Notes under the pieces: model-generated
The model's input: only the letters and a program-made list of their open reading frames with translations
Told to the model about the DNA's origin: nothing
Databases searched by the model: none
Part shown: in pieces, positions 27,232-45,167 of the stretch
Layout of the letters: every line of letters begins with the position of its first letter
Position numbering within the stretch: position 1 is the first letter of the stretch
Program-made: the position numbers and the translations under genes
Assembly: GCF_040712075.1 (NCBI RefSeq)
Contig: NZ_JBFCVL010000005.1
Location: 186,001-250,000, forward strand
Length of the DNA stretch: 64,000 bases
From: Fodinicurvata sp. EGI_FJ10296
Lineage (GTDB): Bacteria; Pseudomonadota; Alphaproteobacteria; DSM-16000; Inquilinaceae
Direction of reading: 5' to 3'

Positions 27232-29907
27232 TCAGTTGGCGCGCAGCGCGTCTTTCACCTTTCCGGCCAGTTGCTTCAGACTGAATGGTTTGGCCATGAA
27301 GTCGACACCCTCGATTCCCGCAAGGTCGGCCCGGAATCGATCTTCCGTATAGCCGGAAATACAGATGACCTTAAGGTCGGCGTCACGCTCGCGCACTTTG
27401 CGAATCAGGGCCGGGCCGTCCATTTGAGGCATCACGACATCGGTGATCAACAGATCGAATGCCTCCTCTCGGTCCAGGGCCGTCAGTGCCTCGGGTCCGG
27501 TCCGGGCTTCGACCACCGCATAGCCCTTGTTTCGGAGGGCTCTGGCGGCAAAAACGCGTACAGGGTCTTCGTCCTCCACCAGCAGGATTCGCCCGGCCCC
27601 GGTCAGATCCCGCGGTGCGGCATCGGCGTCGGATTCGGGATCGGCCGCCCTGGCGGTTGCCGCTTCGGGAACGTGGCGGGGCAGATAGACGGCAAAGCGT
27701 GTGCCCACGTCGACGGTGCTGTCGACCTGCACATATCCGCCCGTCTGCCGCACGATACCGTACACGGTCGAAAGTCCCAGCCCTGTACCCGAGCCGACTT
27801 CCTTGGTCGAGAAAAAGGGATCGAAGATGCGAACCAGGTTTTCCCTGGGGATACCCACGCCGGTGTCTTCGACCTCCAGAACGACATAATCGCCTGCGGG
27901 GATTTCGTCGGACCCGATGCGCCGGGAGGCGGCCAGACGCTCCGTTCCGGTGCGGATCTCCAGCCGCCCGCCACCTGACATTGCATCGCGTGCATTGACT
28001 GCAAGATTGATGATGACCTGTTCCAACTGTCCCTGATCCACCCGGACAAGCCCGAGATCGCGGCCGTGCGTCATTCGCAGATCGATGTTCTCGCCGATCA
28101 GACGACGCAGCAGATTGGATAACTCGGCCAGTACGTCGGTGATATCGAGAACGCGCGGCTGCAGAGTCTGTTGGCGCGAGAAGGCAAGCAACTGGCGAAC
28201 CAGATTTGCCGCCCTGTTCGCGTTCTGCTTGATCTGCATGATGTCGCCAAAACTCGGATCGCCGGGCTTGTGACGCAGCAACAGCAGGTCGCAAAAACCG
28301 ATCATCGCCGTCAGCAAATTGTTGAAGTCGTGAGCGATGCCCCCGGCCAGTTGTCCGACCGCCTGCATCTTCTGGCTTTGCGCGAACTGCGCCTCCAGGG
28401 CCTTTTGTTCCGTCTGGTCGATGAATTGCACCAGCAGGGTATCATCGTCGCCGGAACCGGCATCCATCCGCCGCGCATGGGCAGAGGCGATCATTTCGGA
28501 CCGTCCCTTGATGTGCAGTTCGACCGGTGGCACGGCCCGTCCCGTTTCCAGTGCCTCGTTCAGCAACGCCGACAGATCCAGACCGCCGCTGCGCATATCG
28601 AAGAAATCGGCCAACCCCCTGCCCTGGAGTTCCTGCAACCCGGTCGATCGGACCAGATCGGCAAAGCTCTTGTTCCACTCGAAGATTTTCAGCGATCGGT
28701 CGAGAAGCACGATGCCGATCGGCGCTTCCTTGAAAAATCGCTGGAACCGCATTTCCGACAGGCGCAGCGCCTCGCTCATCTGGCGATGGACCGTCAGATC
28801 GCGGACGACCGAACGGGTCCAGACGGATGCGCCATCATCGCCATGCACCACAGTTTGCGCGATCGAGGCGTGAAACTGACGCATATCCGCGCCACGCATC
28901 ACGATCTCGACATGTTCGGCATCCGGTTTGGACGGGTCGAGCGCGTAGGACGGACCGGTGGCGGGCGGCTCGACCAGAAAATCGTGAAGACTGTAGTCGC
29001 CGCGAACCAGGTCGCGCGCCTCGACGCCCAGCCATTCGGCGAGGGTCGCGTTGGCGAACAGGAATTTCCCCCCGAAATCGACGGAGTAGAAACCGACCGG
29101 CGCGTGATCCATGAAGTCGACGAGTTTGACCTGCTCTTCCCGCAGGATCGCTTCCATCTCGCGTCTGCTCGTGATGTCCTCGATCCGCCAGTGGATATAG
29201 CCCGGCCAGGAGGCGATCGGCCGCGCCGACACCAGCCACCAGTCGGTGCCGGTCTCGCGCACGCGTGGCAATTCCACGGTGAAGGGCGATCCGCCCCGCA
29301 CGGCTCGCCGCAGCCGCTGAAACCGGGCTGCCGCTGTACGATCAGCGGCCAGCGCCTGCTCGAACCGGTCGACGCTGTCGACGGACGGGCTGGAGACAAG
29401 CCGGCAAGCCACCGTATTGGCATGCACCACGCTGTCGTCAGGGGCGCTGAGAATGTGGCCGGCGGCGGTCTCGTCGTAACCGTGCTCAAGCAGGCTGCGC
29501 ATCCAGCCATCTTTCGCGCGGCGCTGTTGCTCGAACCAGAATCCGGCCACGGCGGCGGTACCGCTGACAGCCGCCAGCAGAGCACCGGCCGCCAGCCAGA
29601 CGCTTGCCACACCGTTGGTCGCAGCGGCGAGCGCGGTCGCCAGGGAAGCCGCGATCCCGACCAAAGCAAGCAGGAACGATCCATGCGGCGGCGGCGCGCC
29701 GCCACCACCGCCCTTGATCGAGGATCGTTCCAGCAGCCCGGCCGATGCCCACGGGCCATTCGGCTTAGGTCGATCACCGGACGCGGCGCCCTCGTCGGTA
29801 CCCTGATCCCGCCCGCCGGTCCTTTCGGTCGAGGCAGATGATAGCGGCCACCCGGATGAGAGTCGTTCGGGGTCAAGCCGCTTCGGGCCGGTCGGCGTCT
29901 GGTTCAT
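27232..29907 (-). CDS. cckA: Hybrid sensor histidine kinase CckA
   Basis: 891-aa hybrid kinase. Two N-terminal membrane segments (about residues 77-96 and 100-123) are followed by PAS-type sensor domains (about 140-250, 255-375, 385-500), HisKA with QAVGQLAGGIAHDFNNLLTA (phospho-His about H526), HATPase (ARDAMSGGGRLEI; EDTGVGIPRENL; GTGLGLSTVYGI) and a C-terminal receiver (ILLVEDEDPV; DVVMPQMDG, phospho-Asp about D823). This domain order is that of CckA, which phosphorylates CtrA and CpdR through ChpT to set cell-cycle and flagellar gene expression. Its ATG overlaps the flhB stop (TGA within ATGA), so it is translated with the fliQ-fliR-flhB export genes. recA follows in the same direction. 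Confidence 0.92.
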   Translation of the reverse strand: MNQTPTGPKRLDPERLSSGWPLSSASTERTGGRDQGTDEGAASGDRPKPNGPWASAGLLERSSIKGGGGGAPPPHGSFLLALVGIAASLATALAAATNGVASVWLAAGALLAAVSGTAAVAGFWFEQQRRAKDGWMRSLLEHGYDETAAGHILSAPDDSVVHANTVACRLVSSPSVDSVDRFEQALAADRTAAARFQRLRRAVRGGSPFTVELPRVRETGTDWWLVSARPIASWPGYIHWRIEDITSRREMEAILREEQVKLVDFMDHAPVGFYSVDFGGKFLFANATLAEWLGVEARDLVRGDYSLHDFLVEPPATGPSYALDPSKPDAEHVEIVMRGADMRQFHASIAQTVVHGDDGASVWTRSVVRDLTVHRQMSEALRLSEMRFQRFFKEAPIGIVLLDRSLKIFEWNKSFADLVRSTGLQELQGRGLADFFDMRSGGLDLSALLNEALETGRAVPPVELHIKGRSEMIASAHARRMDAGSGDDDTLLVQFIDQTEQKALEAQFAQSQKMQAVGQLAGGIAHDFNNLLTAMIGFCDLLLLRHKPGDPSFGDIMQIKQNANRAANLVRQLLAFSRQQTLQPRVLDITDVLAELSNLLRRLIGENIDLRMTHGRDLGLVRVDQGQLEQVIINLAVNARDAMSGGGRLEIRTGTERLAASRRIGSDEIPAGDYVVLEVEDTGVGIPRENLVRIFDPFFSTKEVGSGTGLGLSTVYGIVRQTGGYVQVDSTVDVGTRFAVYLPRHVPEAATARAADPESDADAAPRDLTGAGRILLVEDEDPVRVFAARALRNKGYAVVEARTGPEALTALDREEAFDLLITDVVMPQMDGPALIRKVRERDADLKVICISGYTEDRFRADLAGIEGVDFMAKPFSLKQLAGKVKDALRAN

Positions 29908-33920: not shown

Positions 33921-34286
33921 ATGACACGATTCTCCAGCGGCAGATCACCTGCCGACCCGAAAACCGGTCCCTTTGAACCGGAACGCCGGCTCGCGGTCGC
34001 ATTGAGCTATCGGGAGGCCAAATCCAACGCGCCCCGTGTCATTGCGTCCGGCAAAGGTCATCTGGCCGATGCAATACTGGACCGTGCCTTTGCCAACGAT
34101 GTCAAAGTCCGTACGGACCCGGATCTGGCCGAAATCCTGGCGAGCGTCGATGTCGGCAGCGAAATCCCGGAGGAAGCCTTCGTCGCAGTTGCCGAGATCC
34201 TTTCCTATCTGTATCGCGTTTCTCCTGAGCTCGCGCCCGGTACCGCCGATGGAGGGACAGGCGTGGAGATGAGCAATGACCGCTAA
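33921..34286 (+). CDS. FlhB C-terminal-domain-like protein
   Basis: 121-aa soluble protein equivalent to the cytoplasmic domain of FlhB after its cleavage site. Aligning by eye, ERRLAVALSYREAKSNAPRV corresponds to FlhB PTHYAVAMRYEADAMGAPRV, and EILASVDVGSEIPEEAFVAV to FlhB ALYASVEIDQEIPPDQYKAV. It has no membrane helices and lacks the NPTH motif. Stand-alone FlhB-like proteins (FhlB/FlhX, EscU/YscU/HrcU family) occur in several phyla and can substitute for the cleaved domain. It overlaps the next gene by 11 nt and starts a fhlB-unknown-fliO-fliP unit. Confidence 0.85.
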   Translation: MTRFSSGRSPADPKTGPFEPERRLAVALSYREAKSNAPRVIASGKGHLADAILDRAFANDVKVRTDPDLAEILASVDVGSEIPEEAFVAVAEILSYLYRVSPELAPGTADGGTGVEMSNDR

Positions 34287-36116: not shown

Positions 36117-39100
36117 TCAATTCATCGGCGTGGCCGCATCCGCAGTGCCGGCAGTGCCGGACTGCCTGAACCCGTCCAGGAAAGACTCGAAGAGTGCGAC
36201 TTCGGCCACTTCGTCGCGGATTGACTGGAGGTCCAGCGTGTCCATCGAGCCGCCCGACCGGGTCAGGACGCGAAAGGCCTCTCCTTCCGGCCCGTCGGCC
36301 AACTGGTCGCCGAACCGCTCGGAAACCTCGTCCAGACCCGCCTGGTCGTCAGAAAGAGCGAGTACCAGCGTCAGGTTCATGATCCTGTTGCGCCATTCCG
36401 TGTTCAGGGCGTCGCCATCAATTTCAGCGCGGTCGATCAGCGACCAGAGAGCTTCGGCTGCACGCGGCCAGTTCCGGGCCCGCCACGCGATATCAAGACG
36501 CGCCGCATCCGCAAGATCGCCGTCGTCCTGAGCGATGGCTGCAAACGCCTCGTTCGGCCGGTCAATCTCCGACAGCGCCCGTGCCCGCAATGCCCGCGCG
36601 CGGGCAGCCGTTTCCGGTGCAGGATCGGTGTCGAGCGCAAGATCGGTGGCATCCAGTGCGTCCTCGACCCTGTTGTCGAGCAATCGCAGCCCCGCCAGAC
36701 GAGTCGCCACGTCGGGGATTTCGTCGGCCGGAAGACCGTCGGCCAACATATCTTCAAGCATGGCGGCTGATCGGGCGAGCAAGTCGATCTGCGCCAGACC
36801 CTCCGCCAGTGCCAGACGAATGTCGCGACCAAGTTCTCCGGGTGGCATGAGATGACTGAAATCTTCGTATATGGAGTACCGGGCAATCGGATCGAGCGCC
36901 GATGCCGGCCCCTCCTCACCGATGAAAACCTGAACGAAGCGGCTTCGCAAATGGTCCGTCAGATCCGATGCGGCCGGCAAATCGGCGAACTGGTTTCTTG
37001 CGTCATCCCAGGTCGCAAGCGCCTGACGGACGGCTCCGTCGCGCCAGTAAGCGGTACCGAGGTCTTCCAGCAGATCCAGTTCCAGGTGGTCGCCGCGCCA
37101 CGCAAATCGAAGCTGTTCCAGTCGATCGGCCGCATCTTGCGGATCGATCTCCTCGCGCTCGGATTGAAGAGCGACGAGTTCCCGCTCTGCCAGCACTGAG
37201 TGTTTGCGATCGTTGCTATCCACCGCCTCACCGAACCAGGCAACGGCACGATCGCCATCGCCCCGCTCTTTTGCTATCAGGCCCGTCAGGTACTGGAACG
37301 CGCCGGTATCCGAAACAAGCTCACCATAATCATCGAGCAGATCATTTGCGAGCCTGTGGCCGCCGTCGATGTCGCCGCTTTTGAGTGTTGCCAGGGCTGC
37401 GCTCATTCTGAGCTCGATCTGCAGGTCGTCCGGGTAGTCCGCCCAAACATCGCCCGCTCTGGAATAAGCCCGCGCCGCCCCGTCGTAATTGCCACGGCGT
37501 TCCTCTACCAGCCCCCGCCAGGCATAGCCCTCGGCGGCATTGACGAACGCATCGTGGTCGAGATCCGACGCTGCTCCATCCAATTCCCCCGCCAGTGCGC
37601 GTGCCGCCCCCCGGAGTGCCAGAAAGTCGGGCTCATCGCCGAGATCCGGATCCAGGTCCGCTGCGATTTCCAGCATTCCCAGGGCTTCGTGCGGCAATGC
37701 GTGTGTGAGGCTGAGCCGCGCCAGTTCCATTCGAACCGACGCCTTCTCGTCGTCCTGGCTTTCCACAACCCGGCGTTCGAGTTCCCGGCGCTGGGTGTTG
37801 TAGGCCCGTTCCGGCGTCGTCCAGTTCGCGAAATCGTAAAAGCGCGGCACGCCGTCGCCGGGACGGGACGCTGCGGCAAGCCGGGTATCGACGTCGGGTG
37901 ACAGAACCAGCCCGGTATCGGCAGTCAATTCCACTCCGTCCGGGGTCAGGCTCATGAGAATATCGTCAGCCTTTGGCCGCACCGCAATTCCCATCTCCGC
38001 CTTCAGAAACTCCAGTTGCGCAAATTCGCGCGTTGTCGGCATGCCGATACCGGCTTGGGAAACCGGAGCAACCAGAAGAACGTCACCGATCTCCGGATCC
38101 CGCAATCGAACCACGCCACGCGCGCCGGGCGCCATTGCCAGCACCCGGCTCCCGGCGGGATGATTGGGCTGTCGCAACAGGGTGATCGGGACTTCAGCCG
38201 ATCGGTGTTGATCGAGCAGAGTAACAGTCCACGCCGTCGCGTCACGGCGAACATACAGCCCCCGCGCATTGGCATCGGCGAAACGCAGCGCTACGCCGCC
38301 GGTCGCTTCCACCGTCTGAGGTGCGCCGAGAACAGGTTCGCTGTCTCGCGCCAGATCGCTCACATTCAGTCTGTTCCGCGAAGCGAATACGGCCCAGAGA
38401 GCGTCATTCCTGAGGAAAAACGCCGCATAGGACGGAACGCCCGGATCGAATTCGACTGTCCTGCCGTCTGGCGCATCGATTGTCCGAACCTCCAACGCCT
38501 CCCGGGGAACCGTGCCGTATCCGGATCGTGCGCTATCGGTTGGAAGGATACTGGCGCCATCGTCACTGCGGTTTGACCTGCTGCGCGCTTGGCGACCGGC
38601 ATCAAGCCGCGCCAGCGTATCTTCCACGGAACTGGAAACATCCTCCAGGCTTGGCAAATCATCTTCGTCGATCTCCGACGCGGCGCGAACAGTTCCGGGC
38701 GATGGCGTCTCACTGTCGCTGCGCCCGGTTAGCGGCGCTGACGGGCGTTCAGGGATGGTCCCCTGGTCTTCAGCGACCTGCGAGGTTTCGTCAGGCGCGC
38801 GCGCGGCCGATGCACCGGGATCGGCACTCGTGGCACTGTCTTCGGCCGCATCGCTGCCAGGGTCGCTTGAAAAGTCATCACCGGACAAATTACGACCGAG
38901 ATCCACGTCGCCATCACCGGATTCGGCTACAACGCGGGGGGGGCGTGGCGGCGACGGCCGGGGGCGGAACGGATTTCCCTCGACCGTCGCAGGACCATCA
39001 TCCACCTCGGATCCATTCGGATTGGCCCCGTCCGGCGGTGCATTGTCCGGCCGACCATTGTCCGAACGCGTTTCGATCGGCTGACCTTCGGAAGGCGGCT

Positions 39101-40166
39101 GCTGCCGATCGGAAGTCGATGCGGCGGCGAGAGTGCGACCATCACCGCTATCCAGTGCCGGGAGATCGTCCTGGCGGGGCTCGCCGTCGCGGAGGTCAAT
39201 CACTGCACGATTGTCGATGGAGAAAGAATCTACTCGTGTCCCGGGGCTCAGGCCCAGGTCGACGACCAATCCGCCGCCGGCACCCGATCCTACGGCAGCA
39301 GCCGACTCCAGCCGGCTGAGAGCGTTCTCGGAAAATCCCGACCGATTCAAGCTTCCGGGTCTTTCGAACGAAATCCGTGCCCTTTGTCCATCCTGATGAA
39401 CGGAAAATGCCGTCGGCTGTTGCCAATCAAAGACGAGCCGATCGAACGCCTCGTGCACGCCGCCGCGGAGTCCCACCGTCTGACCGAGTTCCGGGCTGGG
39501 TTCCGGGCTGGGTTCCGGGCTCAAAATCCGGGGAGGATCTTCCTGGGAAGTCGGCACTTGTGACGATGAAGCGGCAGATTGGCGAGATCCTGATGCGCTA
39601 GTCTGGTCACCCGCTGACCTGGATGACGGAATGGCGCTGGCATCGCCGGATGCGTCACCCGGCTCGCGGGCCGGCAGTCCAATTCCGCCCGCGTTCGAAG
39701 AAATCGCGCTGCCAGGATTTACCGCCGCGGGTGCCATGAATGCCAGACCCGCACCAGACGAAGCAGAGTCAGATGACTGGCCGTCGCCGTCGCTCGGCCG
39801 GATATCCAGGATTACGGCCGTTCCGGTCCCGAATGCCGTCGCATCGGCATCACCGGTGAGTGTAAACCTCACGGTCTCCAGGCCAATTTGCGAAATCGAG
39901 GCCACATAGTTGGACAACGACTGGGGAACGCTGTCGAATTCGGCCGACACAGGTTCGGAGAAGGTAATGTCGACGGTTCGGCCCGATTGATCGAGCCGAT
40001 GGTCGACGGGTTGCCCCCATTCGAAGACGGCCCGGCCGTAATCTCCATGGTCCCATGACCTGAGATCCTGCGCGCCCGCTGCCAGCGGCGACAGAACGGC
40101 GCCCACCGCACCGACAATGCAACACAGCGCCAAAAGGACGATTCTCGGCACGCTGTGTTCCCGCAT
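36117..40166 (-). CDS. Giant secreted TPR-containing protein at the end of the chemotaxis unit
   Basis: 1349-aa exported protein. A signal peptide (IVLLALCCIVGAVGAVLSPL, cleavage near AGAQ) precedes repeated beta-rich segments with the pattern RAVFEWGQPVDHRLDQSG and DRLVFDWQQPTAFSVHQDG, each about 100 residues and AMIN-like in appearance. Then come about 330 disordered residues rich in Ser, Asp, Pro and Gly, a third beta-rich region (about 450-690) and a C-terminal half of helical TPR-like repeats (from about 690, e.g. EGYAWRGLVEERRGNYDGAA). ATG 40166 has GGAG 9 nt upstream. It lies 247 nt downstream of cheZ, same strand. Probably periplasmic and linked to motility; no defined function. A tandem repeat lies in the linker. 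Confidence 0.8.
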   Translation of the reverse strand: MREHSVPRIVLLALCCIVGAVGAVLSPLAAGAQDLRSWDHGDYGRAVFEWGQPVDHRLDQSGRTVDITFSEPVSAEFDSVPQSLSNYVASISQIGLETVRFTLTGDADATAFGTGTAVILDIRPSDGDGQSSDSASSGAGLAFMAPAAVNPGSAISSNAGGIGLPAREPGDASGDASAIPSSRSAGDQTSASGSRQSAASSSQVPTSQEDPPRILSPEPSPEPSPELGQTVGLRGGVHEAFDRLVFDWQQPTAFSVHQDGQRARISFERPGSLNRSGFSENALSRLESAAAVGSGAGGGLVVDLGLSPGTRVDSFSIDNRAVIDLRDGEPRQDDLPALDSGDGRTLAAASTSDRQQPPSEGQPIETRSDNGRPDNAPPDGANPNGSEVDDGPATVEGNPFRPRPSPPRPPRVVAESGDGDVDLGRNLSGDDFSSDPGSDAAEDSATSADPGASAARAPDETSQVAEDQGTIPERPSAPLTGRSDSETPSPGTVRAASEIDEDDLPSLEDVSSSVEDTLARLDAGRQARSRSNRSDDGASILPTDSARSGYGTVPREALEVRTIDAPDGRTVEFDPGVPSYAAFFLRNDALWAVFASRNRLNVSDLARDSEPVLGAPQTVEATGGVALRFADANARGLYVRRDATAWTVTLLDQHRSAEVPITLLRQPNHPAGSRVLAMAPGARGVVRLRDPEIGDVLLVAPVSQAGIGMPTTREFAQLEFLKAEMGIAVRPKADDILMSLTPDGVELTADTGLVLSPDVDTRLAAASRPGDGVPRFYDFANWTTPERAYNTQRRELERRVVESQDDEKASVRMELARLSLTHALPHEALGMLEIAADLDPDLGDEPDFLALRGAARALAGELDGAASDLDHDAFVNAAEGYAWRGLVEERRGNYDGAARAYSRAGDVWADYPDDLQIELRMSAALATLKSGDIDGGHRLANDLLDDYGELVSDTGAFQYLTGLIAKERGDGDRAVAWFGEAVDSNDRKHSVLAERELVALQSEREEIDPQDAADRLEQLRFAWRGDHLELDLLEDLGTAYWRDGAVRQALATWDDARNQFADLPAASDLTDHLRSRFVQVFIGEEGPASALDPIARYSIYEDFSHLMPPGELGRDIRLALAEGLAQIDLLARSAAMLEDMLADGLPADEIPDVATRLAGLRLLDNRVEDALDATDLALDTDPAPETAARARALRARALSEIDRPNEAFAAIAQDDGDLADAARLDIAWRARNWPRAAEALWSLIDRAEIDGDALNTEWRNRIMNLTLVLALSDDQAGLDEVSERFGDQLADGPEGEAFRVLTRSGGSMDTLDLQSIRDEVAEVALFESFLDGFRQSGTAGTADAATPMN
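39489..39522. repeat. 12-bp tandem repeat in the TPR protein linker
   Basis: TTCCGGGCTGGG is present twice exactly, followed by a third copy diverging at the end (TTCCGGGCTC). On the minus strand it encodes a PEPSPEPSPE run. Unit changes keep the frame. Confidence 0.85.
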
Positions 40167-40413: not shown

Positions 40414-41085
40414 TCAATCGAACTCAGCCAGAAGCCGGTCGATTTCGTCCTGGTCGATCGCCTTATCCGGCAATTGCGGTCCATTTAGCAGAGACATGTC
40501 AACGTCCGCAGCGTCAGCCGATTGCGCGGCGCCCGAAGACCGCGCCTTGGCCACTTCCTCACCCAGGACGTTGACGAGCGTATCGATCTTGTTTTCGATA
40601 TGCTTGAGTGTATTCACGACCTTGGTGATCCGCTGACCGGTAATATCCTGGAAATTGCACGCTTCGAAGATATTGATGGTGTGGGTCATCAACTGATCAG
40701 AAACGTCGCCTTCCAGCGTCGCGGCGATGTTCTGAATCTGCTCAGCCGTATCCAGTATCGTTCCGGTTGCTTCTTCCGTGGCGCCGACAACTGCATCGAG
40801 TTCGTCGGTGGCCGAGGGAATGAAGTCTGCGCTGATCTCATCTGGTCGGATCTGCGCGATTTCGGATCGCGCTGCCTGAATGTATTTCGCGAGCGAATCC
40901 AGTTCACGGTAGATCTTGAAGTCCAGGGAGGTCAGGTCGCCCTCCATGGTGCCAATGACCTCTGCAATGATTTCCGCGACGTCGCTGCGCGTCAAAGGCG
41001 CTTCGGCATTTGCCCGCGCCTCATCAAGGCTTTCCGCCAATCCGGGTATCGTCTCGGCCGACGCACCGTTCGCTCTCGTGGTCAT
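40414..41085 (-). CDS. cheZ: Chemotaxis phosphatase CheZ
   Basis: 223-aa CheZ-type phosphatase that removes phosphate from CheY-P. The catalytic segment is EACNFQDITGQRITKVVNTL (Asp and Gln of DxxxQ, about residue 150), and the C-terminal CheY-binding peptide is DKAIDQDEIDRLLAEFD. The middle is a long helical hairpin. ATG 41085 has a strong GAGGAGG site. It directly follows cheY (66 nt), its target. CheZ is less common in alphaproteobacteria than in gammas but is found in several orders. Confidence 0.93.
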   Translation of the reverse strand: MTTRANGASAETIPGLAESLDEARANAEAPLTRSDVAEIIAEVIGTMEGDLTSLDFKIYRELDSLAKYIQAARSEIAQIRPDEISADFIPSATDELDAVVGATEEATGTILDTAEQIQNIAATLEGDVSDQLMTHTINIFEACNFQDITGQRITKVVNTLKHIENKIDTLVNVLGEEVAKARSSGAAQSADAADVDMSLLNGPQLPDKAIDQDEIDRLLAEFD

Positions 41086-41151
41086 TGCCGCCCCCTCCTC
41101 TGCCAAACTACCATACAGCCGATCCAGTCAGTGGTCCGCCGGTGCCCTGCG

Positions 41152-41538
41152 TCAGAACTGACCGACCACGGAAACCAGCTTTCCTTTCAGTGTCTCGGCA
41201 TTGAACGGCTTCACGATATAGTTGCTGACGCCGGCTTCACGTGCCGCCACGACGTTTTCCTTCTTGGATTCAGCAGTAATCATGATGAACGGCGTATCTT
41301 TGAGCTTCTGGTCTGCCCGCACTTCCCGCAGGAGCTGAAGACCCGTCATGGGCTCCATGTTCCAATCCGAAATAACGAGCCCATAGGTTTTCTCGCGCAT
41401 TTTCTGCAGTGCACTGGAACCGTCCGTCGCCTCATCCACATTCTCAAAATCGAGCTGCTTCAATAGGTTGCGGATGATCCGAAGCATAGTCTTGTAGTCG
41501 TCCACAATCAGAATGGACATGGACTTGTCGACGGTCAT
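41152..41538 (-). CDS. cheY: Chemotaxis response regulator CheY
   Basis: 128-aa single receiver domain: acidic pocket ILIVDDYKTMLRI, phospho-Asp in LVISDWNMEPMTG (about D58), switch Thr/Ser in FIMITAESKKEN and Lys in NYIVKPFNAETL. Length and sequence are those of a flagellar-motor CheY that binds FliM, encoded four genes upstream. No CheA, CheW or receptor gene is in the window, so the signalling cluster is elsewhere. Confidence 0.96.
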   Translation of the reverse strand: MTVDKSMSILIVDDYKTMLRIIRNLLKQLDFENVDEATDGSSALQKMREKTYGLVISDWNMEPMTGLQLLREVRADQKLKDTPFIMITAESKKENVVAAREAGVSNYIVKPFNAETLKGKLVSVVGQF

Positions 41539-41707: not shown

Positions 41708-42814
41708 TCAATCCTGTAGCGGCTGCAAATCGGGCAATTGCCCCCTGTCGGCAAGTTCACGGGTAACTTCCCGAGCGCGCTCGGGCTGCATGTTGGCGAT
41801 TATCGGTGCTGATCGGCGCTGAGCCATTCGATCGAGAACATCGATCAGAACGTCCATATCAAGACCGTCGAATATTCGCGCTGCGTCGCCCGGTCTCATG
41901 TTTTCGTAAATGGCAACAAGTCCGGCCAATTGCTCTTCCCGTTCTCCATCCACCTGACCCAGTAGCGACCGAATTTGCTCACGCAGAGCTTCCAGTTCCG
42001 CCATTTTTTCTTCAATGCGGCGTTCGGCGATTTCCTGAAGGGCCTCGCGTTCAGTGAGTGCACGCTCCCGCTCGTCAAGCGCGTCGCGCCGGGCCGCGAG
42101 ATCGTCCAGTAATTCTCTTTCCGTCGCGCTACGACTGCCGTCCCGGAGTGATTCCAGCAAACCCGGACGGGAAGCACTGGCGCTCGCGCCGGCGTCGTTT
42201 CCGGTCTCGGCGTTAGTCGCGGATTGCGCATCCGCCCCAGCGTTCTCGGCACTCGTGGCGCCCTGATCGGCATCCGGGTCTTGCCCGGTACCGGCTTCTT
42301 CCGCACGCGACGGGACGCCGGGCCCGAAGAACCCGCCCTGCTGCACGCCGGTCCAGACGTCGCCAACGCGAAACCCCAGCATGACCACCGCGACGAAGAT
42401 GACGCTCGGCAACAATCGCAAACGCGGTCGCTGAATTGCCGACGATACCGCCGCAGGGACACCGGCGATACGGTTGGCCCAGCCCCGTATCGCAGCACCG
42501 GCGCCGGACGCCAGTTGAAGCAGTGTCGGCGCCGGGTTGGTCGGCGCCGACGCGTCGCCCGTATCGGCGCCCTTATAGGGCCGAGGTTCGTGCGCGCTAT
42601 CCGGCTGCGTCGACTCCCTGTTCGGCTCGTCGTGGTTGGATAGGGCCGCCTTCGCTGCGTGGGTCTCGGCACTACGCCTGCTCGATCGCCTGGCGTCGAT
42701 ATCGTCGCCGGCTTCGCCAGTCCGCTGACGCCGCATTTCCCGGCGTGAGGCAATACTGTCCTCGCCGCTCTGCCGGTGACGGCGCCTTTTCGCAAAGTCC
42801 TGATCATCGCTCAT
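41708..42814 (-). CDS. MotE-like protein (MgtE N-terminal-domain fold) of the flagellar unit
   Basis: 368-aa membrane-anchored protein. A basic, polar N-terminal cytoplasmic region (about 120 residues) is followed by one membrane helix (LLPSVIFVAVVMLGFRVGDV), an acidic/Ala-rich spacer, a long coiled coil (about residues 225-295) and a C-terminal MgtE-N-like domain (IYENMRPGDAARIFDGLDMD, MAQRRSAPIIANMQPERARE). This is the layout of alphaproteobacterial MotE-family proteins; MotE in Sinorhizobium chaperones the motility protein MotC. ATG 42814 lies just after the upstream gene's stop with GGTGA 5 nt upstream; GTG 42823 would overlap by 4 nt. The N-terminal cytoplasmic region is unusually long. 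Confidence 0.82.
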   Translation of the reverse strand: MSDDQDFAKRRRHRQSGEDSIASRREMRRQRTGEAGDDIDARRSSRRSAETHAAKAALSNHDEPNRESTQPDSAHEPRPYKGADTGDASAPTNPAPTLLQLASGAGAAIRGWANRIAGVPAAVSSAIQRPRLRLLPSVIFVAVVMLGFRVGDVWTGVQQGGFFGPGVPSRAEEAGTGQDPDADQGATSAENAGADAQSATNAETGNDAGASASASRPGLLESLRDGSRSATERELLDDLAARRDALDERERALTEREALQEIAERRIEEKMAELEALREQIRSLLGQVDGEREEQLAGLVAIYENMRPGDAARIFDGLDMDVLIDVLDRMAQRRSAPIIANMQPERAREVTRELADRGQLPDLQPLQD

Positions 42815-42819
42815 CAGCG

Positions 42820-43464
42820 TCACCGCATGTTCTCAATGGCCTTGAGGAGGTCGACATCGCCGCGGCCGCGCGTCTTTGGCGCCTCGTCGTCGGAAGGGGC
42901 CCCAGGCGACGGCGAGGCGCGCGCGCGCAGCGGCGTCACCTGCCCACCCGAGCCTGGCCGCCCCGCGTTCGACCCACCCCCGTTGGCCCCATTCGTAGGC
43001 CCTGAAGACGAGCCACGCCCCTGAGCGCCAGATCGGCTACCAGACTGATCTCTCGATTGATTGGTGGTCTCAGTAGCGCCGGTCCTTGCGCCGGCACTCG
43101 AACCGGGGCGTTTGCCGCGCCCATCGTTTCGTCCTTCAACGGCCGTCGAGGCGGCGACTTCGAGGCGATCCGCCAATCCCTCACCCGCTTCGACCAGGAA
43201 TTTCAACTCGTCACGCAGCGACTGGGCGCGATGGATCTGCTCCCGCAGTTCGGCGCCCGCGCCATCGGAAGCCGAGCGCAACGATCGAATGGATTCGTCG
43301 GCCCGATATGCCGCTTCGGCAAACGCACGCGCCGCCTGCTCGAGTTCCGCTCGGTTGTTGCGCAGGGATTGAAGGCGCTTGTTCAGGATGATCGCGTAAA
43401 CGATCGTTGCTCCCAACAGCACGACAATCATGCTGTCAAGCACGAGCCCGTAGTTCATGATCAT
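42820..43464 (-). CDS. DUF6468-type flagellar-operon membrane protein
   Basis: 214 aa: N-terminal membrane helix (LDSMIVVLLGATIVYAIILN), then a helical region with AELEQAARAFAEAAYRADES and AQSLRDELKFLVEAGEGLAD, typical of DUF6468, then about 80 disordered Gly/Ser/Arg-rich residues and a short C-terminal helix (DVDLLKAIENMR). Proteins of this family lie next to fliM/fliL in many alphaproteobacteria; no function is established. Start ATG 43464 overlaps the fliM stop by 4 nt; it ends next to the motE-like start. It may help stator or C-ring assembly, but this is guilt by association. Confidence 0.82.
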   Translation of the reverse strand: MIMNYGLVLDSMIVVLLGATIVYAIILNKRLQSLRNNRAELEQAARAFAEAAYRADESIRSLRSASDGAGAELREQIHRAQSLRDELKFLVEAGEGLADRLEVAASTAVEGRNDGRGKRPGSSAGARTGATETTNQSRDQSGSRSGAQGRGSSSGPTNGANGGGSNAGRPGSGGQVTPLRARASPSPGAPSDDEAPKTRGRGDVDLLKAIENMR

Positions 43465-44558
43465 CCTTCCACCTCGTCCGGCTGCTCAATCAATTCCTGC
43501 TCGACCCGGACGGCAATGTTGCCTTTGCGCCGGCCCATTCGGCCACGAAACATGGGACTGTCTCCGCATCTGAGTTCGACCATGCCGCCCGGTCCGGTGG
43601 TCAGCGGCAGATGGGATCCGACTTTCCAGTTGAGCACGTCGGCAAGGGAACACGTCACCTCGTCCAGGACCGCGCTGAGCTGCACGTCGGTTTGCCAGAG
43701 TTCGTTCGCGAGATGGTTCTCCCAGATCGAATCCCGACCGAACTTTTCGCCCATGAACATCTGCAGCAGCAGCTCGCGGACCGGCTCCAGGGTCGCATAA
43801 GGGATAAGCAGTTCCAGCCTGCCGCCGCGGTCTTCCATATCGATGCGCAGCTTCGCCAGCATGGCCGCATTGCCGTGCCGAACGATGGTGGCGAAGCGCG
43901 GATTCGTTTCGAGCCGCTCGAACCGGAAGGTTACAGGTGACAGTGGATCGAACGCGGCCGATAGATCGGACAGGACAACGTGAACCATGCGTTCAACCAG
44001 ATTGCGCTCGATCGTCGTATAAGGCCGCCCTTCGATTCGCATCGCTGCAGTGCCCCGGCGCCCGCCGAGCAGAACGTCGACGATCGAGTAGATCATCGCC
44101 GAGTCAACGACCATCAGCCCGAAATTGTCCCATTCTTCGGCCTTGAAGACCGAAAGCATGGCCGGCAGGGGAATGGAGTTGAGGTAGTCGCCGAATCGGA
44201 TGGAGGTGATCTGGTCCAGGGACACTTCGACATTGTCGGATGTGAAGTTCCGCAGGCTGGTCGACATCATTCGCACGAGCCGATCAAACACGACTTCGAG
44301 CATGGGCAGCCGCTCGTAGCTGACCATGGCCGAGTTGACGAGCGCCATGACACCGGTCGTATCGTGGGCGCCGTCGTCATCACCATCGAAGCCGAGGAGG
44401 CTGTCGATCTCGGTCTGATCAAGCACACGGTTGGAACCGGGTTCGACTCCCATGGCGGCCGACATGTCGAGATCGTCGTCCTCGTCGTCGCCCTCCATCA
44501 TGGCCGCCCATTCGTCGGCCATGGCGTCCTGATCTTCGTTTGCGGTGGGGTCGCTCAT
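43461..44558 (-). CDS. fliM: Flagellar motor switch protein FliM
   Basis: 365-aa C-ring protein that binds CheY-P and FliG. Its CheY-binding peptide is present (VLDQTEIDSLLGFDGD, about residue 46), preceded by an unusually long acidic N-terminus (EGDDEDDDLDMSAAMG). The middle CheC-like domain contains LNSIPLPAMLSVFKAEEWDN and LLGGRRGTAAMRIEGRPYTT; the C-terminal SpoA domain is complete. ATG 44558 has AGGA 7 nt upstream. Downstream of fliL, overlapping the DUF6468 gene by 4 nt. No fliN or fliG is in the window. Confidence 0.97.
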   Translation of the reverse strand: MSDPTANEDQDAMADEWAAMMEGDDEDDDLDMSAAMGVEPGSNRVLDQTEIDSLLGFDGDDDGAHDTTGVMALVNSAMVSYERLPMLEVVFDRLVRMMSTSLRNFTSDNVEVSLDQITSIRFGDYLNSIPLPAMLSVFKAEEWDNFGLMVVDSAMIYSIVDVLLGGRRGTAAMRIEGRPYTTIERNLVERMVHVVLSDLSAAFDPLSPVTFRFERLETNPRFATIVRHGNAAMLAKLRIDMEDRGGRLELLIPYATLEPVRELLLQMFMGEKFGRDSIWENHLANELWQTDVQLSAVLDEVTCSLADVLNWKVGSHLPLTTGPGGMVELRCGDSPMFRGRMGRRKGNIAVRVEQELIEQPDEVEG

Positions 44559-44636
44559 CAATTCGTCCTGATTGCTGGACCGGCCCGTAATCGGCCGTCA
44601 GAGTCGGCCGGCGGATGCCGCAGTAAGGCGCTGCCG

Positions 44637-45167
44637 TTACTGAACAAGCATCTCGCGGAAAAGTACGTCGCGCACTTCTGCAGGTTCTGCCTGGTTGGAG
44701 ACCCGGCGCAACAGTTCCTCGCGCAGTCGATAGAGCCCGGCCGACCCCTGCAGGTCGGTTACGTCGAGTTCCCGAAGATAGACCTGGAACTGGTCGATGA
44801 TGCGCGGAAGCACGCGCTCCACATGCTCTACATCCGATTCCCGCGCCAGTTCGAGACTGATCTGCAACCTGAGGAAGTGTTGACGCCGATCGCCAGTGTT
44901 CAGATTAACCAGCATGTCGGGAAGTTCGTAGTAATAGCCCGGCTCGGACGGATCGACCGGCTGCTCTTCCTCTACCGCCGCCTCGGCTGAGGAAAAGCTG
45001 CTGACGATCGCGCTCAGGGCGCCCGTGACGTAGAGTCCGGCGGCCATCCCGAGAACGACGAGAAGCGGTAAGATAATGAAAAGAACAAGCTTTTTCCCGC
45101 TCATCTTTTTGCGGGGAAGCTTCGCGACCGCGTCGTCGAATGCTTGATCCATTGTGTCGGAGGTCAT
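44637..45167 (-). CDS. fliL: Flagellar basal body-associated protein FliL
   Basis: 176-aa single-pass membrane protein that surrounds the stator and affects motor torque. Basic N-terminus, one membrane helix (LVLFIILPLLVVLGMAAGLY), an acidic linker, then the periplasmic stomatin-like domain with YYYELPDMLVNLNTGDRRQH and LVQ at the C-terminus. First gene of the fliL-fliM-DUF6468-motE-cheY-cheZ direction, 78 nt before fliM. Divergent from flgF across a 494-nt gap. Confidence 0.95.
   Translation of the reverse strand: MTSDTMDQAFDDAVAKLPRKKMSGKKLVLFIILPLLVVLGMAAGLYVTGALSAIVSSFSSAEAAVEEEQPVDPSEPGYYYELPDMLVNLNTGDRRQHFLRLQISLELARESDVEHVERVLPRIIDQFQVYLRELDVTDLQGSAGLYRLREELLRRVSNQAEPAEVRDVLFREMLVQ

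Follow-up and report, generated by a model that had tools for sequence, protein, structure and literature searches.

A 64,000-nucleotide stretch of Fodinicurvata sp. EGI_FJ10296 (contig NZ_JBFCVL010000005.1, positions 186,001 to 250,000; hereafter the window) carries, as the last gene of a flagellar cluster, a 1349-codon frame whose product is probably a periplasmic spoke or scaffold of the flagellar motor, located between the MotE E-ring and the stator and of the same kind as MotK, FssB (CC_2058) and PflA. Counterparts are already known, and the window protein, with three AMIN-type domains, comes from a family that is widespread but has no name as yet; what goes beyond the published cases is the third AMIN domain, a family recognisable by sequence across much of the Alphaproteobacteria, and MotB-like neighbour genes. 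An initial annotation of the window had called the protein a candidate for an undescribed system component, which is too strong because MotK (PMC10954123), FssB/CC_2058 (PMC7885107) and PflA (PMC11870540, PMC13023049) are described counterparts. The genome carrying the window is 4.8 Mb in size and 99% complete.

Gene, domains and fold

The frame runs on the minus strand from an ATG at 40166 to a stop at 36117, and a start at an in-frame TTG (40184) would add six residues. It is a real gene, because homologues occur in many genomes; these align over the C-terminal ~770 residues, with the N-terminal part matched separately and more weakly. The gene of 1349 residues at 36117-40166 in the initial annotation is thus confirmed by frame and homologues, with the strand added. 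A gap of 247 bases separates it from cheZ and contains no promoter-like site; promoter-like sites occurred at chance level and terminator-like sites below chance.

From its N terminus the protein comprises a signal peptide, AMIN1, a linker, AMIN2, an acidic linker, a divergent AMIN3, a second beta region and a TPR solenoid (Table 1). The annotated signal peptide was borne out by eye and by hydropathy, the signal region being the sole strongly hydrophobic stretch of the protein. AlphaFold2 was run on residues 1-335 (alignment of 25 sequences) and 565-1349 (36 sequences). The N-terminal model (mean predicted local distance difference test score, pLDDT, 77.6) contains two beta domains at 34-125 and 229-328, mostly above 90, with a disordered stretch between them, and the C-terminal model (mean pLDDT 88.6, predicted template modelling score 0.65) contains ~185 residues with beta structure followed by a long helical solenoid. 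In profile comparisons AMIN1 scored 99.7% against AMIN2, and residues 565-659 scored 97.8% against AMIN2 (E 9.4e-13) and 96.3% against AMIN1, compared to 0.5-0.6% against the same profiles for the next 100 residues, used as a negative control. These results indicate three domains of the AMIN type and a single additional beta region.

The repeated AMIN-like segments reported earlier are therefore present, and their number is corrected to three (34-125, 229-328 and, divergent, about 567-655). What had been described as one disordered linker of 330 residues is actually two (126-228 and 329-566), the first disordered in the model and the second judged so from composition; occupancy of the second is uneven in relatives (0.20-0.68 per 50 residues, positions 351 to 550). 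The long TPR half stands as a solenoid over about 779-1335, but the beta structure comes first. Because AMIN1 and AMIN2 are common to many relatives, neither is peculiar to the window protein.

Pfam gave TPR and AMIN-like matches on the window protein, both under curated cut-offs, and Pfam and NCBIfam on the family gave TPR, AMIN or AMIN-like and scattered generic matches and nothing else. When the PDB was searched by sequence, the TPR profiles matched designed and generic TPR proteins and the AMIN profile matched ribosomal proteins alone (E 0.3-1). For the C-terminal model, the top Foldseek match was 9hmf_K, a flagellar periplasmic scaffold of Campylobacter jejuni (E 1.7e-8); this chain appears to be PflA, its length of 773 equalling residues 16-788 of PflA as given in PMC11870540. 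For the N-terminal model, the Foldseek list was headed by the PilQ chain of 3jc8 (E 7.6e-5), with AmiC next (E 1.2e-3), and VIA-align aligned AmiC (Z 13.2, root-mean-square deviation 1.9, 98 residues) and the N-terminal domain of PflA (9leq; Z 7.5, root-mean-square deviation 3.7, 91 residues).

The genome carrying the window also encodes a second AMIN-type protein (L036:8655-9845, corresponding to G000:C5 near 308660) with an N-terminal hydrophobic segment, a long low-complexity part and one C-terminal AMIN-like domain, in which no TPR match was found. In genome G006, one member of the family, the sole match was a short frame (L027:7806-8612) covering residues 569-756 (AMIN3 and the second beta region), and none of the other cluster genes was found nearby in the 18 kb examined.

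Gene order, distribution and MotB-like neighbours

The window's minus-strand order is fliL, fliM, a DUF6468 gene, a motE-like gene, cheY, cheZ and the scaffold gene. The motE product scored 34.4 bits against the FlbB collar/E-ring profile NF047368 (curated cut-off 110), which matched this product in the window and in 8/8 relatives tested, always under the cut-off; among 96 sampled genomes of the class it exceeded the cut-off in none and matched 49 at E 0.001. Judged by sequence, the motE product is a relative of this FlbB model, not a member.

To compare gene order we used loci from a scan of genome contigs, in which the single scaffold protein as query found no relative and a short alignment of relatives picked out at least 536 of 596 candidate stretches. 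The best 80 of these were kept as the named loci, which are thus the most similar ones. For the 48 of the 80 in which 7 kb or more of sequence precedes the match, same-strand genes within 9 kb upstream included fliL in 47, fliM in 47, a pflI-like gene in 46, motE in 47, cheY in 40 and cheZ in 35. Because cheY and cheZ are less constant, motE is the steady neighbour of the scaffold gene; the cheZ-TPR linkage, whose conservation had been proposed as a check, is kept (35/48) but secondary to motE (47/48). The lone exception was Roseospira marina (L080), with 0/6 cluster genes and two MotB-type genes directly upstream. A chemotaxis role via cheY and cheZ was set aside, as cheY was not found upstream in 8/48 loci and cheZ in 13/48. 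Since MotK/MotE, FssB and PflA/FlgY are published, the window cluster is an E-ring and spoke gene set of an already described kind.

Presence of the gene follows that of flagella. Using the C-terminal half as query, a homologue was found in 53/96 class genomes, compared to 56/96 for fliM; both were present in 51, fliM only in five, the scaffold gene only in two and neither in 38, so that 51/56 fliM-positive versus 2/40 fliM-negative genomes carry it (Fisher p 8e-19, uncorrected for descent). A separate sample of relatives contained it in 16/21 genomes, own genome included. For the five fliM-only genomes, profile A1 recovered the gene in G050 (E 7e-76) and a contig-end piece in G061, the contig of G056 ends shortly after motE, and the gene was still not found in G020 and G024 after the profile search. 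G033, scored as having neither gene, has a flagellar cluster, so the fliM profile overlooks some flagellated genomes. Of the 51 genomes that have both genes, 36 carry them on one contig, and in 35 of these the two lie no more than 12 kb apart.

By hand count, 46 of the 49 genomes matched by the FlbB/MotE profile share the scaffold gene, with seven having the scaffold gene only and three MotE only. Among 14 control genomes, this profile matched Caulobacter, Bacillus subtilis, Thermotoga and Lactococcus lactis. L. lactis is not known to be flagellated, so single weak matches of this profile are not proof; Caulobacter and B. subtilis are named as having E-ring homologues (PMC13023049). DUF6468 was found in 53/96 genomes, 48 of them shared with the scaffold gene (hand count), and among the control genomes only in Caulobacter vibrioides.

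The family also extends beyond close relatives. The TPR profile scored 130 bits on a TPR protein encoded behind motE in G068 and 255 bits on one from the fliM-motE region of G050, over ~500 columns each, compared to 25 and 20 bits for two unrelated TPR control proteins, and the family profile also reached genomes whose protein has no AMIN1 or AMIN2 match. A locus of G033 (L164) has the order FliL, DUF6468, MgtE_N, MotA and TPR gene, which is the published fliL-pflI-motE-motA-motK order. In a plasmid collection the whole scaffold protein had no match; one distant Sphingobium record matched the C-terminal half of a relative and one Paroceanicella record matched the motK-position protein. G068 has two flagellar clusters (L165 on C2 and L150 on C1), both containing fliL and a motE-like gene.

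Many relatives have MotB-like genes, mostly in tandem, directly upstream of the scaffold gene (L074:628-2354, L080:4422-6283, L151:15573-16992 and others). Among the 58 named loci with 2 kb of upstream sequence, at least one such gene adjoined it in 43, both in 38 and none in 15, as detected with profiles seeded from the same named loci, in which seed genes match by construction; a listing of 11 more loci from outside the window's family included three with the pair and eight with none. In L074, L080 and L151 the second gene encodes MotB_plug and OmpA domains and the first gave a MotB_plug match alone, a weak one in L074 and L080. In Roseospira navarrensis (L074) the scaffold gene is preceded by the same pair as in R. 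marina, and its start shares 4 bases with the second MotB frame. Across 13 aligned examples, a membrane-helix aspartate, which we take to be the channel aspartate, is present in 13/13 second and 0/13 first MotB proteins. The window's own genome has one MotB_plug match beside a motA, at C5:142177, and one next to a different MotA-type gene, at C1:117246. Among the matches listed by a literature search, none was a study of two tandem MotB genes adjoining a TPR gene.

Tentatively, the alphaproteobacterial AMIN-TPR family may in many lineages form a unit with this pair, one member having the channel aspartate together with an OmpA domain that binds peptidoglycan and the other having no aspartate. 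Such a unit would be a stator holder anchored to the wall, with two unlike MotB proteins, and would bridge MotK/FssB and motB-motC, the window lineage being without the pair. The idea that extra AMIN domains compensate for the missing pair was dropped, as pair-bearing relatives (for example, L024) also have AMIN1 and AMIN2.

A probable motor scaffold and rival readings

A periplasmic motor or stator scaffold had already been proposed, and this is well supported by the co-occurrence with fliM, the position behind fliL, fliM and motE and the first Foldseek match to the C-terminal model. It is further supported by two Roseospira loci in which the scaffold gene overlaps or directly adjoins one of MotB type (MotB_plug and OmpA). 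Published counterparts suggest how such a protein might act. MotK and MotE are described as periplasmic, required for rotation and binding each other and MotB2 (PMC10954123). Mutants of MotK and FssB have paralysed flagella (PMC10954123, PMC7885107, PMC13023049), and on deletion of fssB (CC_2058) filaments are present and swimming is lost (PMC7885107). PflA spokes connect the FlgY E-ring and extend to the stators, and CC_2059/CC_2058 are given as FlgY/PflA (PMC11870540). By analogy, the window protein would bind MotE and MotB. It would be exported by Sec; MotE, as FlgY-type dimers, would form the E-ring round the MS-ring, and the TPR solenoid would dock on the MotE coiled coil. The spoke chain would then run outward, where AMIN domains on flexible acidic linkers might grip peptidoglycan and/or the outer scaffold and stator parts (FliL, the MotB periplasmic domain). 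In this way the protein may recruit or hold stator units at the rotor and keep them engaged, and its loss would be expected to leave flagella assembled but paralysed.

Several observations weigh against a motor scaffold. The Z of 7.5 for 9leq is level with that of small heat-shock proteins (Z 8.0 and below), so this match alone is not decisive. Unrelated TPR proteins follow close behind 9hmf_K (from 2.4e-8 versus 1.7e-8), with low template modelling scores, and 9hmf was not among 50 VIA-align matches to the C-terminal model, which include many generic TPR proteins. The scaffold gene and fliM are on separate contigs in 15/51 genomes, mostly drafts, and in G031 (5 contigs) no flagellar reference gene was found near the scaffold gene. 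MotB-like neighbours were not found in the window or in seven loci (one a fragment) of its family. The motK-position protein of G033 gave a weak TPR match (36 bits, 91%, versus 20-25 bits and 25-51% for the controls), its N terminus scored 85% against AMIN2 and 18% against AMIN1, and full-length scaffold profiles with default filters did not match it. These values suggest, but do not prove, that MotK belongs to the same family as the window protein, the comparison being with the protein in the motK position.

A different role in the motor, as a periplasmic chaperone or activator of stator units that serves stability or channel opening and is not a structural spoke, is unlikely. The first description of MotE, as a MotC chaperone (PMC13023049), the dependence of MotK localisation on MotA2/MotB2 (PMC10954123) and the MotB-like genes directly upstream in 43/58 named loci would fit. 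However, fold and domain order resemble those of the structural spoke PflA, although neither match is decisive, and long linkers with AMIN domains seem better suited to an anchor.

FimV/TspA polar hubs are defined by a LysM domain and an internal membrane segment. The window protein has neither (no LysM in Pfam, no second membrane segment by hydropathy), so the analogy drawn in the initial annotation is not supported, and the published counterparts' mutants have paralysed flagella. A polar organiser responsible for flagellar placement at pole or wall is therefore highly improbable, despite the neighbouring DUF6468 gene in the pflI position and the implication of PflI in Caulobacter flagellar positioning (PMC10954123). 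Least credible of all is a cell-wall or pilus protein of the PilQ or amidase type, lying beside flagellar genes by chance: PilQ and AmiC are the best matches of the N-terminal model, but Pfam found no secretin or amidase domain, presence tracks fliM over 96 genomes, and the position is conserved in 47/48 named loci.

One sequence-recognisable family, mostly at one conserved place, makes the Caulobacter E-ring and spoke question testable by genetics and cryo-electron tomography in a number of motile laboratory strains, and the family survey points to the MotB-like neighbour genes.

Other features of the window and published counterparts

Table 1 Features of the scaffold gene and its cluster in the window.
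Feature	Position	Strand	Basis
AMIN-TPR motor scaffold gene (MotK/FssB/PflA-like), 1349 aa	36117..40166	-	open frame and homologues
Sec-type signal peptide, residues 1-33, cleavage guessed after AGA	40068..40166	-	by eye and hydropathy
AMIN1, residues 34-125	39792..40067	-	pLDDT mostly >90; profile vs AMIN2 99.7%
Disordered linker 1, residues 126-228 (103 aa)	39483..39791	-	pLDDT mostly <60; composition
AMIN2, residues 229-328	39183..39482	-	pLDDT mostly >90; PilQ B2 4aqz Z 11.2, PflA 9leq Z 7.5
Linker 2, acidic, residues 329-566 (238 aa)	38469..39182	-	net charge -27; disorder inferred from composition
AMIN3 (divergent), residues about 567-655	38202..38468	-	hhalign 97.8% vs AMIN2, E 9.4e-13; beta in model
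Second beta region, residues about 656-760, without AMIN match	37887..38201	-	model and profile comparison
TPR-type alpha solenoid, residues about 779-1335	36162..37832	-	model; TPR profile matches in relatives
cheZ	40414..41106	-	PF04344 6.8e-16
cheY	41152..41538	-	PF00072 6.4e-30
motE-like gene, relative of E-ring proteins FlgY/FlbB	41708..42823	-	NF047368 FlbB 1.8e-8, sub-cut-off; MgtE_N 2.6e-5, just sub-cut-off
DUF6468 gene, pflI position	42820..43464	-	PF20072 1.4e-18
fliM	43461..44561	-	PF02154 7.8e-63
fliL	44637..45167	-	PF03748 8.5e-21

Elsewhere in the window, a PAS-histidine kinase-receiver protein, presumably CckA from its appearance, is encoded beside flhB (27232-29907, minus strand), and a similar gene lies behind flhB in many named loci. 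A 121-residue free-standing copy of the FlhB C terminus (33921-34286, plus strand; PF01312, 1.2e-18) lies beside fliO/fliP, and many named loci show matches at the equivalent place.

Of the published counterparts, MotK of Cereibacter sphaeroides shares the signal peptide, N-terminal AMIN domain, disordered linker and TPR half, and its gene also lies within a fliL-pflI-motE cluster (PMC10954123). MotK, as described, has 652 residues and one AMIN domain, whereas the window protein, at 1349 residues, carries three domains of the AMIN type plus an additional beta region; motK follows motA, whereas the window gene follows cheY-cheZ. FssB/CC_2058 of Caulobacter crescentus (PMC7885107), likened here by description, is likewise a secreted TPR protein encoded beside an E-ring gene, CC_2059, and is called a PflA homologue (PMC11870540, PMC13023049); CC_2058 and CC_2059 are described as adjacent, with no cheY-cheZ between, unlike the window genes. 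We found no paper on a TPR flagellar motor protein and swimming in Magnetospirillum in the literature search. PflA of C. jejuni appears to share the signal peptide, an N-terminal AMIN-like beta sandwich, a loop and a TPR array (PMC11870540), but has 788 residues and one AMIN domain, the window protein being longer with three. PflA and PflB are said in that paper not to be conserved at the sequence level, and the cage proteins FcpMNO and PflD of the Campylobacter motor reportedly occur in Campylobacterota only. MotC of Sinorhizobium meliloti, also likened by description, is a TPR-rich periplasmic MotE partner encoded downstream of motB (PMC13023049, PMC10954123), for which, unlike the window protein, no AMIN domain is described in the passages cited.

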